DNA of 64,000 nt. Source: Umbilicaria muhlenbergii (Eukaryota > Ascomycota > Lecanoromycetes > Umbilicariales > Umbilicariaceae). Of this stretch, positions 54,476-60,612 are shown one piece after another (the first letter of the stretch is position 1; the number at the start of each line of letters is the position of its first letter). Position numbers and translations under genes: made by a program. The notes beneath the pieces were generated by a model, which saw nothing but the letters and a program-made list of their open reading frames with translations, searched no databases and was not told where the DNA came from. The stretch covers positions 2,204,580 to 2,268,579 of the forward strand of contig KK106984.1 in assembly GCA_000611775.1 (NCBI GenBank), given 5' to 3'.

Positions 54476-55862
54476 TCATGCGTCAATGCCCCTGACCCCG
54501 GTGGCCACGGCATCTTCGTCGTCGACTTTCGTTTGGTATTCTACTACTCGTGCCTCATAGCTGCTAGCGTCGCTACTTCTCTTTGCATCTGCAGCTTTCT
54601 TGGGCTTCATTAGCGGCCAGTGGCCCTTCCGTTCGTTGTACCGCATGGCGAGAAATCCGACTATGACGGCAATCCAGTAGAAGTTATAGGAGAGGACAGA
54701 GCCATAGGTCGCGGAGTTTTGCCACCCGAACAAAGAGTTGAAGATACCCCATCCTCCTCCGCCGTTCATCTGGGGGTTACAGCACTTTGATCACGCGTCA
54801 GCATGGTTGAGTGGGTGGCAGATTGCGGGTGCGACCGATGCTTACGTTCACGTGCCATACGCTCTTACGGATATCATACGACCCTGGGCCGGAGCCCGTC
54901 TCTGCTGCATCCCCGCCAATGGTCTTACCCCACTGCGACTCATCAGTACAGTGCTTCAAGATAGGAACTTAAAACCTACAGCGTGGATTTCAAAATCCCA
55001 TACCGCCTTGGAGAAAAGACCGGCAGCCACGAGGTACAGGAAGCAGGTTGATATGATGAGGAACGTTTGTATCTTGGCCATATTTCCACCTCTGCAATCG
55101 TCAGCAAGTTAAAAGAGACGCCAAAACAACGGTGGAGTCATTTACTTGTATATGAGGAAGCCAATCAGACAGCCAGCGCCAAGGCCAACGACGGCAGGGA
55201 TGGGGAAGGCCGTGGCAGGAAGACCCAAGCTCACACCACCAATGAAGATGACCGCCTCGAGCCCCTCACGAAGGACTGTGATGAAGGGAAGGATGAACAT
55301 CGAGTACTTCTGGCACCATATCTTGAACCGAGTCCGAGCACTCCCGCTCTTTCTGGCGCTGTCCTTGGCCTCGAGCGCCTTTGCCAACTTGACACGCCAC
55401 TTGTCCTGAAGCTTGGACACGCGGAGCAGCGCTGCACCCATTGCAGTGATGATGAGAGTAGCCAGGAGACTGAAAGTGCCTTCCCAGATGGTCTCGGTCC
55501 CCGACCAACGGTCTTTGCCAATGCCATAGAATGCCCCGATTATGCCGGCGCCGGCAACGATACAAATGAGAAGGCCTAGACCGGTTCCCCACCAAATCTA
55601 TAGACCGTGAGGCACCGCACAGGAATATCTGGGTCGAGGCACCACTCACCTGTCTTACGAGCCTCTTATAAATCGCCGGATCCCGGTCTGGACCAAGGGT
55701 TTGCTTTAGAAAGGCCAAGAGGACGGAGACGATAATACTCGTCTCCAGCGTCTCTCGGAGACAGATGAAGAAGACTGTATACCGATCTACTTAGCAGCCG
55801 AGACGATAACATTGCAAAGATATATGAGCAGACGTACCGGGTACGGCGAAGACGTTGACCAT
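54476..55862 (-). CDS. FTR1: High-affinity iron permease Ftr1
   Basis: Ftr1 carries Fe(III) through the plasma membrane, directly from the Fet3 ferroxidase. Six exons: 55862-55838 (only 25 nt), 55774-55650, 55597-55146, 55091-54980, 54932-54846 and 54784-54476 (369 aa). Iron-binding motifs are the two R-E-x-L-E sequences: [11 protein letters not shown] early and [13 protein letters not shown] in the middle. Membrane helices include [35 protein letters not shown] and [16 protein letters not shown]. The late conserved block [20 protein letters not shown], then [22 protein letters not shown], confirms exons 5 and 6. The cytosolic tail is charged. The tiny first exon (MVNVFAVP) is required to give [19 protein letters not shown], the family's N-terminus. 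It is divergent to FET3. Confidence 0.96.
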
Positions 55863-56042: not shown

Positions 56043-56051
56043 ATCTGATAA
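56043..56051 (+). promoter_or_regulatory. SreA/Fep1-type GATA site ATCTGATAA
   Basis: Perfect match to the ATCWGATAA consensus known for iron-responsive fungal GATA repressors; 181 bp upstream of the FTR1 start. Confidence 0.7.
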
Positions 56052-56263
56052 TCTCTGCAGATTTAGCGCCGGACCGGATCCCAGCGCAAGATGAGGTATT
56101 CGTCAATTCCGGTGTGGCGCGAGTCGAAAAGCAGACTAGCGGCATACGTGTGGGTGGGAAAGGAAGCTCGGCGCAAAAGAAGGCTAATGTGCGCGCCCGT
56201 AGGATTGTGGAAAGGCTGGAGGAGTGATGGCCGGTGGCCGATGGCCGATATCGGTGGGGAAAG

Positions 56264-56272
56264 ATCTGATAA
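56264..56272 (+). promoter_or_regulatory. SreA/Fep1-type GATA site ATCTGATAA
   Basis: Second perfect ATCTGATAA on the same strand, about 400 bp upstream of FTR1. Confidence 0.65.
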
Positions 56273-57147
56273 CGAATTGTGCCGCGGTGAAAGTGGAAAC
56301 GAGCGTGACGAAGGGAAAATGAAAATGGCAAGTGGCAATTGGCAAAAGGCCGCGGCGGAAAGAAGAACACGGCTTTTTTGGCGGGGAATCTAGCCAGCTT
56401 CGGTGCATGCCACTTCGCCTGCACTTCCTAGCGCGCCTTGGCCGATGAATCGTCGAAAAGTCAGTGTGGCACGAGTGAGAGAGCAGAGAGCACAGAGCAG
56501 AGAGCCCAGAGCAGAGAGCCCAGAGCAGCGAGCAACGCGCGACGTGCGACGTGCGTGCGGTCGAAGCACTTCGCCGTTCCTTTTACTCACCATTGGCCAT
56601 CAATCACCCCCTTGGCCTGCTTTCTTCTGATATCCTGGGCTTCCTTCCTGCACTCTCGCAGCCGCGATTGTATCAGGACCTAACGTATTCTCTTGGCGGT
56701 TCGGGCCTATTTCCCGCACTAGCACGAATTTTTATCTGATTGATCTAATCATCGCATCACCTCTCACCAACATTCCCTTTTCGGCCCGGCACGCATTGAG
56801 ATTGTCAGACAGCCCGCCTCCTGCCCTGTTGGCATTCGTTGGCATACTCAATTGGAACGCTGGGAGAAGGAAGACCATACCACTACTGGTGCACAATCGG
56901 TATCCCCTCATTCTAAGTAATCCCTCGGCTACGCCGTTCCCGGAGGCGGACTACGACGTCGACCTAAAGGCATTGGGATTGCCAACTGGCAAGCGAGACA
57001 GGAGAGCATGCCAAGCTGCTTGCACAGGACACTTCCTTAAGGTCGCCAACAGTCTTGGTTTCGTCGCTTCCGATATCGTCCTCTCCTTCCATCTCATTCC
57101 TTGGCTCCGTCTGGAATTGTCTATCAAGTCCGAGGCAAGCCCTGATT

Positions 57148-57180
57148 TTATCAGATCGGAACTTTATCAGATTATCAGAT
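57148..57180 (-). promoter_or_regulatory. Cluster of three SreA/Fep1-type GATA sites
   Basis: Three perfect minus-strand ATCTGATAA sites (TTATCAGAT at 57148-57156, 57164-57172 and 57172-57180), the last two sharing one base. A further CTTATC core follows at 57184. They lie 230-265 bp upstream of the FET3 ATG. Clustered sites favour cooperative binding of a two-zinc-finger GATA factor. Confidence 0.75.
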
Positions 57181-57410: not shown

Positions 57411-59554
57411 ATGATGTCCGCCTCCATTCTCAAAGCACTGTTGTTTATTGTACCTTTGTTCTTGACTTCTTTCACTCAAGCCGCCATTGTCACTTACGAC
57501 TGGAACATCACGTGGGTGCGTGCTAATCCTGACGGACAACACGAGCGCCCGACGATTGGTATCAACGGTCAATGGCCGTTGCCACACCTCACCGCCACCG
57601 TGGGAGACCAGATCGTGGTCAATGTCGACAACCAACTTGGCAACCAGTCGACCAGTCTTCACTTCCACGGTCTTTACATGAACGGATCCACCCATATGGA
57701 TGGGCCAGTGGGCGTAAGTCAATGTGCTATAGCACCTGGAACGACTTTCAAGTACAATTTCACGGTATGTAACCTCTCCTCAACCATCCTCTTCGGTCTC
57801 AAAACTCACTGTTCAAGATCGACCAACCCGGCACGTATTGGTACCATTCACATGATAGTGGCCAATACCCCGATGGCCTCCGCGGACCTCTTATCGTTCA
57901 TGATCCAGATTTTCCTTATCTGTATGACGAAGAGATTGTCCTTACGTTGTCGGACTGGTATCATGATCAAATGCCGGGCCTGATCAAGAAATTCATTAGC
58001 TTTGCTAATCCAACCGGTGCTGAACCTGTCCCGAACTCAGCGTTGATGAACGATACGCAGAACCTCACCGTGGCCGTTGAGCCTGGTAAGACCTATCTTG
58101 TTCACATGGTCAACATGGGCGCTTTCGCCGGACAGTATGTCTGGTTCGAAAACCACACCATGCAAATTGTCGAGGCCGACGGCATCTACACCGAGCCCGC
58201 AGAAGCGAACATGATTTATCTTACTGCTGCACAGCGGTATAGCGTCCTGCTAACGACCAAGAATGACACCGCGTCGAACTTTGCTTTCGTTGCTAGTATG
58301 GACGAGGTATGCGCGGTAGCTTCTTCGCTTTGGCTATGTGAGCTAATACCGCAGAAAGGCTCTCTTCGACAAGATCCCGCCGAAACTGAATCCCAATGTG
58401 ACCGGCTGGCTTGTCTATGACGAGGCCAAAGACTTACCGAAACCCGCTCTCCTCGAGTCCTTTGATCCACACGATGACTTCACATTGGTCCCCACCGACC
58501 GCGAGGAGTTGTACGAAAATGTAGATCACTCTATCAAGCTCGACGTCACGATGGGCAATCTGGGCGATGGTGCCAACTAGTGAGCACTACACCTCGCACT
58601 TTTTGCGTTACCAGGACTGACTGTCACTTCAGTGCATTCTTCAACGACGTGACCTACGTCCGGCCTACAGTACCCACTCTCTACAGCTCCCTCTCAACCG
58701 GCGTCTCCGCCTCCAACGCCTCCGTCTACGGCATCAACACCAACGCCTTCATCCTCCAGAAAAACCAAGTCGTCGAAATCATCCTCAACAACAAAGACCC
58801 CGGCCGCCACCCCTTCCACCTCCACGGCCACGTCTTCCAAACAATCGTCCGCTCCCCCGACGACGCCGGCGACTTCGTCAACAACGAAACCTTTCCCAAA
58901 GTGCCCATGAAGCGAGACACCGTCCTCGTCCGTCCAAATGGAAACCTCGTTCTTCGCTTCCGTGCTGATAATCCAGATATGTCTTCTCCCTTCCTTCCTT
59001 CCTTCCTTCCTTCCTTCCTTCCTTCCTTCCTTCCCCTTCCATGCCGATGACGCTCCACTAACATCCGACTTTCACGCGTCTGGCTCTTCCACTGCCACAT
59101 CGAATGGCACGTCGCCTCCGGCCTCGTCGCCACCCTGATCGAAGCCCCCGCCCTCCTGCAATCCTCCCTCTCCATCCCCGCGGACCACCTCGCCGCCTGC
59201 GCCGGCGCGGCCGTCCCGACCGCCGGCAACGCCGCGGGGAACACGGTCGATTTCTTCGATCTCACGGGCGCGAGAATGGCGCCGGAGCCGCTGCCGGCGG
59301 GGTTTACGGCCAAGGGGGTGGTGGCCCTGGTTTTCAGTTGTGTTGCTGCGGTCGTGGGCGTGGCGGTTATTGTTTGGTATGGGGTTGGCGAGATTGGGGA
59401 GGTGGAGGCGGGGAGGCTGGAGGGGAAGATCGAGGAGGTGGCGGTGAGGGTAGGGGTAGAGGTAGAGGAGCCAGAGCGGGTAGTGCAGAGGAGGGGGGTG
59501 GGGGCGGAGGCGGGGTTGGGGTTGGGGTTGGGGTTGGGGTTGGGCGAAAAGTGA
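57411..59554 (+). CDS. FET3: Multicopper ferroxidase Fet3
   Basis: Fet3 oxidises Fe(II) outside the cell and hands Fe(III) to Ftr1. Exons: 57411-57764, 57818-58306, 58359-58579, 58633-58976 and 59076-59554 (628 aa). A signal peptide ([19 protein letters not shown]) leads into [14 protein letters not shown]. Copper ligands: [43 protein letters not shown] and [18 protein letters not shown]-terminal helix ([20 protein letters not shown]) anchors it in the plasma membrane with a cytosolic tail. The fourth intron, 58977-59075, has AT-AC ends (ATATGT...CAC): only this keeps PGVWLFHCH in frame, and no AG lies in reach. The third acceptor (AAAG at 58358) was chosen over CAG four bases upstream to keep frame. 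A Leu-Gly repeat near the C-terminus is encoded by TTGGGG repeats. Confidence 0.95.
58985..59037 (+). repeat. (CTTC)n microsatellite inside the FET3 AT-AC intron
   Basis: About a dozen head-to-tail TTCC units occupy the middle of the fourth FET3 intron, between the ATATGT 5' end and the CTAAC branch site. The tract forms an unusually long polypyrimidine run. Confidence 0.9.
59514..59548 (+). repeat. (TTGGGG)n telomere-like repeat in the FET3 3' end
   Basis: Five to six GGGGTT units encode the Leu-Gly run of the Fet3 tail. A second tract of TTGGG units follows in the 3' flank at about 59624-59648. Confidence 0.85.
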
Positions 59555-60612
59555 CGTGGTGGGATTGAGGTGTAGGAAGAGTATATATCGTTCGAGGGGC
59601 TTTTCCGTGCGGTTCGGTTGGGATGGGTTGGGTTGGGTTGGGTTGGGGGGTTTTCGGGGTGCGTTTGTAGATAGTGTGGTGCATTGCGCGGCGTCAAGGG
59701 TGGGGGAAATTTACAAAATCCTGCGTGCTCGCTGTCTTGATTAGGGCGGATGATGTCGAGCGGAGACCACTGTCCGTTTTGTATACGTGCTCAAATTCGG
59801 GGTGGCAATACTTGGTTTCAGCACTGGAGTTTGAGTGGTCGATTATAGTCCATTTTGTCCTGATGTTGAATACATATCCATCCCATGCGTGCGCGAATGG
59901 GTATTTAGTTCAATGCCTTCCTTACCTTTTGTCGTATTCGTTACTCCCGCGAGAGTCCTCGGTTTGAAGAGCGCAATCCATCTACTTTCCTTTTCCACTG
60001 CGCCTGACTGACGCTCAGCGCAGATCTGCTTGGGCGACGGGTGCTACGGGGATTGTTCCTCTTGTCGACACAACTTGTACCAGTCAGTCACATCTAAATT
60101 AAACTTATGTCCCATCTGACATCCACATCCAGAACCGCGCGCAAGGACAATGGAAATCGATGTGCCAGGGAGGGGACTTTTTCATGCATGATAATGCAGG
60201 AATGAATGGTTGGGCTGCGAAGAAGAGTTCGAATTGGACGCTCGGGGGATTGAGGAAAATCGGATTCGGTTGTGGAAGTGAAGGGATTGCGAGGACCCGA
60301 GACGAGGGGAGGAGGGTCACTAGAGAGAGGACTGATTGTCCTTGCGCACGAGCCAGCGCGGTAGAAAACGAGGGTTACTTACATGTACCTCGTATCTACC
60401 AAGGCTAGAGTGCGGCCGTCAAGGCAATTCTGACTCGGCTGGAAAGAAAAGCTCCAGGTTGCTCCAAAAGAGGGCGGAGGAGAAAGAAACGCCCCTACGA
60501 TGCCATATATTCTCTTTACGTCATAGTTCAAATATAGTTCAACGAGCAATGCCCCAGCTCGCGACCTCCCAGCCAATATCCCCCCCAAAACCCATCCCCC
60601 CAAACCCCACCT
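59555..60612. other. Intergenic between convergent FET3 and URA3
   Basis: About 1.06 kb. It starts with TTGGG repeats (3' UTR of FET3) and ends C-rich (3' end of URA3). ORFs within it lack support. Confidence 0.5.

Follow-up and report, generated by a model that had tools for sequence, protein, structure and literature searches.

The question raised by this locus is whether the coding sequence of a FET3-type ferroxidase gene is interrupted by an intron with AT at its start and AC at its end, which spliceosome would remove such an intron and how old its ends are. The segment concerned occupies positions 58977-59075 of the window, that is the whole 64-kb stretch of DNA that was analysed, which is part of contig 4 of a genome of 34.8 Mb in 7 contigs, taken from its genes and short introns to be that of a fungus, probably an ascomycete. 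Judged from the sequence comparisons described below, this segment is in all likelihood a real spliceosomal AT-AC intron, spliced out by the major (U2-type) spliceosome, in an AT-AC state that is older than the duplication of two paralogues, here named FET3A and FET3B.

The FET3A gene is located on the plus strand at 57411-59554, adjoining an FTR1 gene. Exon 1 (57411..57764), exon 2 (57818..58306), exon 3 (58359..58579) and exon 4 (58633..58976) were delimited by homology-guided joins and are separated by three GT-AG introns: intron 1 (57765..57817, 53 nt), whose position is shared with FET3B, intron 2 (58307..58358, 52 nt), which has no counterpart in FET3B, and intron 3 (58580..58632, 53 nt, phase 2), at the position of FET3B intron 2. 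The last bases of exon 4 are CAG, the consensus at positions -3 to -1, and the AT-AC intron (58977..59075, 99 nt) is followed by exon 5 (59076..59554), to which Pfam and the alignment with yeast Fet3p assign the copper ligands and which contains a C-terminal hydrophobic stretch, recognised by eye, and the stop codon. The spliced coding sequence of 1887 nt encodes 628 amino acids with no stop before the end and includes the Pfam domains PF07732, PF00394 and PF07731, the three Cu-oxidase domains; the best solved match is yeast Fet3p (1ZPU), with an E value of 3.6e-174 and 49.6% identity over 530 columns. By its three domains and its best match the predicted protein is assigned to the FET3 ferroxidase family, and this putative ferroxidase has in common with Fet3p the NPTGAEP stretch. 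Tandem repeats of GGGGTT and GGTTG are found at 59512-59544 and 59611-59647, at and just past the 3' end of the gene, the first of them being translated into a C-terminal Gly-Leu run.

Upstream of FET3A, and divergent from it, part of an FTR1 iron permease gene was recognised on the minus strand at 55142..55597 (Pfam FTR1, E 1.2e-37, the scan having covered part of the gene). ATCWGATAA, an SreA/HapX-type iron element, occurs six times in the 64-kb window, where 0.76 would be expected, and every one of these sites is placed between the two genes, at 56043-57180; the FTR1/FET3A pair therefore looks iron-regulated. Three of these sites fall within 33 bases, at 57148-57180. The protein family and the FTR1 partner are the same as in the reductive iron uptake of yeast Fet3p/Ftr1p, the partner being here a divergent neighbour; unlike the yeast gene, which is not known to contain introns, FET3A has introns, the AT-AC one included.

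The segment 58977-59075 reads ATATGT...CTAAC...TTTCAC and interrupts, in phase 1, the Gly codon of DNPG: the exon ends in GATAATCCAG, the intron starts with ATATGTCTTC and finishes with CTAACATCCGACTTTCAC, and the coding sequence resumes with GCGTCTGG. An earlier note on this DNA had proposed that joining 58976 to 59076 restores DNPG and the copper-ligand block and keeps 1887 nt in frame, and this is borne out by the alignment of spliced FET3A with Fet3p (1ZPU), which is gapless across both the junction and the block. Its further statements, that the unspliced frame runs into a stop and that no AG is present between the donor area and the HCHIEWH codons, are equally correct; the stop is located at 59048-59050, and 58960-59200 contains only two AG dinucleotides, one at 58975 and one at 59143, past the HCHIEWH codons. 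Since AG is absent from 58976-59142, the copper ligands would be lost with any GT-AG choice. As read from the sequence, the junction could fall in three phases, of which only phase 1 gives Gly, the others leading to Arg or Asp, and the Gly of DNPG is present in 8/8 multicopper oxidase genes found (at least 8 in the genome, FET3A and FET3B being considered as spliced). The AT-AC intron measures 99 nt against the 52-53 nt of the ordinary introns 1-3, and its extra length is probably accounted for by a (CCTT)11.5 microsatellite at 58989..59034. This repeat is perfect and may vary in length between strains, and the intron is about twice as long as its FET3B counterpart.

A search of the genome's own DNA with the FET3A region led to a second locus on contig 2, in which the match takes in the two final intron bases and continues from there into exon 5. 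This locus (L020, minus strand) is the paralogue FET3B, whose protein shares 262 of 547 residues with FET3A (48%). FET3B intron 3 (L020 2346-2297, minus strand) is an AT-AC intron of 50 nt without any repeat, located at the codon and in the phase of the FET3A AT-AC intron; its signals are GACAATCCAG/ATAAGT...CTGAC...TATAC/GCATTTGG and in full it reads CCAG/ATAAGTTACCC...ATTACTGACAATTGTATAC/GCATTTGGCTC. The bodies of the two AT-AC introns are unalignable, with a single 7-base match in blastn-short. As for the remaining architecture, FET3B introns 1 and 2 coincide in position with FET3A introns 1 and 3, FET3A intron 2 is missing and one extra GT-AG intron is present near the 3' end. In six other multicopper oxidase genes, a number to be read as a lower bound, the codon is uninterrupted, with the Gly kept and no intron there, and the two introns found just downstream of the DNPG codon, in L022 and L023, are GT-AG. 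The two paralogues thus present, as far as a junction fixed by homology can tell, a coding-gene sequence that must be removed, with AT at its 5' end and AC at its 3' end. The AT-AC intron with U2-type signals described in the earlier note stands in its coordinates, ends and frame, and recurs at the same place in FET3B.

FET3B lacks the NPTGAEP stretch of FET3A and Fet3p, and a 151-aa piece of FTR1 gave no significant match in the 8 kb of L020; because of these two features, FET3B may not be a ferroxidase. No ATCWGATAA site occurs in L020.

The donors of both AT-AC introns follow CAG and have G at +5, and their U1 match (7/9 in FET3A and 8/9 in FET3B) is the best among the eight introns of the two genes, the six GT-AG introns reaching 5-6/9. 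The branch-site-like CTAAC of FET3A occupies 59058..59062, and its A (59061) precedes the final base of the intron by 14 nt; the corresponding distance in FET3B is 11 nt. As had been pointed out, the FET3A donor is GTATGT with G1 changed to A and the 3' end carries a change from G to C, so that each end is one base off the common GTATGT and CAG forms. Donor and branch site are U2-type and not U12-type in both genes (ATATGT/CTAAC and ATAAGT/CTGAC), and U2-type recognition would be expected because both introns keep the +5 G and a good branch site.

The probability that such a motif arises by chance was evaluated in 20,000 dinucleotide shuffles per interval, with the junction free in 3 phases. 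An ATRNGT donor accompanied by a YAC end and a branch site was obtained in 0 shuffles for the FET3A intron and in 1 for the FET3B intron; donor and YAC without the branch site were obtained in 0 and 4, and the donor alone in 9 and 64, respectively. On both strands of the 64-kb window, AT-AC intervals of 45-120 nt with a branch site number 13, the lowest figure for any of 20 end pairs, the other 19 giving 14-49, and with 13 such intervals in the window motif counts by themselves were dropped as evidence. The branch-site rule misses some likely real introns, as in the case of FET3B intron 4 (GT-AG), which scores no branch-site motif. The evidence for the AT-AC intron is the homology-fixed junction together with the paralogue, and not the motif.

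The first and last bases of an intron touch in the second step of splicing, and yeast suppressor work is said to have found A with C able to replace G with G. In the mechanism that we infer for FET3A, U1 would pair with CAG/ATATGT at 7/9 consensus positions and U2 around CTAAC, and the contact between the first and the last intron base would be made by A with C in place of the usual G with G, which would allow AC to serve in the second step where the region provides no AG. The AT-AC state would have been present before the FET3A/FET3B duplication and kept since, because a change at a single end would spoil splicing. Passages of PMC2831892 describe the contact between first and last base as non-Watson-Crick and argue that U2-type AT-AC introns are trapped, both ends having to change at once; this view is fitted by the two paralogues, which have kept the AT-AC ends and otherwise have no intron sequence in common.

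Other explanations of the locus are far less probable. The earlier note regarded the intron as a paired natural substitution, by which a GT-AG intron would have turned into AT-AC in the lineage of FET3A; the ends of FET3A, each a single base from GTATGT and CAG, agree with a recent event of this kind, but a substitution peculiar to this gene or lineage is not supported in view of FET3B, which in spite of only 48% identity is AT-AC at the same codon and phase, so that two independent paired changes at one position would be needed, and this origin is accordingly improbable. A sequence error hiding GT and AG ends might be suspected from the CCTT microsatellite, a setting where assemblies can err, yet the repeat (58989-59034) touches neither intron end and the same AT-AC ends in the independent, repeat-free FET3B locus make such an error very unlikely; a dead gene, to which the intact 628-aa frame and all three copper-oxidase domains are opposed, deserves as little credit. 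A conventional splice from the GT at 58981 to the AG at 59143 would use two dinucleotides that do exist, but at the price of the copper ligands kept by Fet3p and FET3B, and is hardly conceivable.

The AT-AC ends also recall the introns of the minor spliceosome. The U12-type consensus strings are ATATCCTT for the donor and CCTTAAC for the branch site. Neither FET3A nor FET3B combines a ATATCCTT donor with a CCTTAAC branch site, the match of donor and branch region being 6/9 and 6/9 in FET3A, which gives the U12-type reading some ground, but only 4/9 and 5/9 in FET3B, when scored against full consensus strings whose cores are given in passages of PMC3033335 and PMC2846911. Against a U12-type intron is also the +5 G of both genes, and minor splicing is reported as absent, with no convincing case, from Ascomycota and Basidiomycota in the passages cited (PMC10639083, PMC2846911), an argument that applies in so far as this fungus, probably an ascomycete, does belong to Dikarya. 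Models of U11, U12, U4atac and U6atac gave 0 matches in the genome, a weak result given that 14 control genomes matched none of the models, the major snRNAs included. All considered, a U12-type intron is very improbable.

Among the major snRNAs, loci above the cut-off were obtained for U6 (1), U2 (2), U5 (1) and U4 (1), the U5 and U4 loci being L112 and L113 of the own-genome model search, while the U1 model gave two loci below it (40.6 and 38.1 bits versus 69.5). In both of these U1-like genes the 5' end is split, in the form ATACTT/GT...TAG/ACCTTG with a branch-site-like CTGAC or CTAAT in between, by a GT-AG insert of 56 nt in L110 (1451-1506 when the locus is reversed, stored as 1699-1644) and of 61 nt in L111 (1442-1502, plus strand). 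The two inserts are unlike each other by eye, and once they are removed both genes start with ATACTTACCT, an ordinary U1 5' end, and agree in 146 of the 152 bases compared up to a provisional 3' end. Each gene looks as if a spliceosomal intron interrupted precisely the element with which U1 recognises 5' splice sites; a precedent exists in basidiomycete yeasts, where U1, U5 and U6 genes contain introns. If the inserts are spliced, the 5' end of mature U1 would be ordinary, and no altered U1 is seen that would explain AT donors. The U1 introns also show that snRNA genes may receive low scores when they are interrupted, which makes the minor snRNA negatives weaker.

With regard to age, AT-AC ends that predate the FET3A/FET3B duplication are most simply suggested by the sequences, because FET3B is AT-AC at the identical codon and phase although the proteins are only 48% identical and the intron bodies have only one 7-base match; this dating is based on two paralogues, and convergence is unlikely. 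A tree of five rows did not resolve the order of branching among FET3A, FET3B and yeast Fet3p; it carried a long-branch warning for the two outgroup rows, and the distances in changes per site are 1.32 for FET3A-FET3B and 1.12 for FET3A-Fet3p. In a related-locus search for orthologues, the 80 relatives retained out of 165 all bore bacterial or archaeal titles, and among viral contigs 8 pattern matches were obtained, with no relative.

A bolder and rather doubtful extension would make the FET3 intron a relic of minor splicing in Dikarya, i.e., an AT-AC U12-type intron recaptured by the major spliceosome when ATATCC became ATATGT through the +5 G, followed by ATAAGT in FET3B, and from then on trapped in the FET3-type genes of ascomycetes, as changing a single end would stop splicing. 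The FET3A donor ATATGT retains the ATAT of the U12 donor, with the +5 C replaced by G, and a +4 A, as in ATAAGT of FET3B, is named as a possible later step of recapture in a passage of PMC2831892. The two donors are compatible with a U12 intron recaptured before or as Dikarya lost minor splicing, and not more than compatible, because a single base likewise separates ATATGT from the common GTATGT.

The reading preferred here, namely that the major spliceosome takes out an old AT-AC intron, has its closest likeness in sodium channel genes of animals (intron 21 of SCN4A and relatives), whose introns, according to passages of PMC2831892, share the AT-AC ends, the +5 G, the major-spliceosome signals, the conservation in paralogues and the difficulty of escape by single mutations; in section 16 of that source all the U2-type AT-AC introns of these genes have +5 G and may be trapped. 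The present case differs in that it belongs to a fungus and to a multicopper ferroxidase, in the length of 50-99 nt and in splicing that is deduced from sequence. In Caenorhabditis elegans about 42 AT-AC introns were judged real, U11, U12 and U4atac seem to be lacking and the introns are attributed to the U2 spliceosome (passage of PMC3033335); the absence of detected minor snRNAs is common to our case, while that organism is an animal, its introns were called from transcript data and conservation in paralogues does not appear in the passage. As regards fungi, in the parts of the sources cited AT-AC represents 0.019% of annotated introns (PMC7072748, Table 1) and 0.03% of SnowyOwl models (PMC4084796), is among the listed intron types of F. 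graminearum (PMC3577648), and accounts for 69/14305 RNA-seq junctions in T. longibrachiatum (PMC4324775) and for 0.09-5.19% of junctions, by species, in human fungal pathogens (PMC6176087); AT-AC introns in fungi may therefore be rarer by annotation than by RNA-seq counts. These surveys concern the same dinucleotides and, in those parts, give counts only, with no named gene in which the position is conserved between paralogues.

No published record of a FET3 AT-AC intron, or of an AT-AC position conserved between fungal paralogues, was found in the open-licence literature searched. AT-AC introns are a known, rare kind, to which the FET3 intron, most likely removed by the major spliceosome, adds a further case. 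A pair of AT-AC introns that occupy the same position, in a genome with no detected minor snRNAs, would constitute a natural test of the major spliceosome working with A as the first and C as the last intron base, and orthologues would tell whether a return to GT-AG is possible or the introns are trapped, and whether or not they descend from lost U12 introns.
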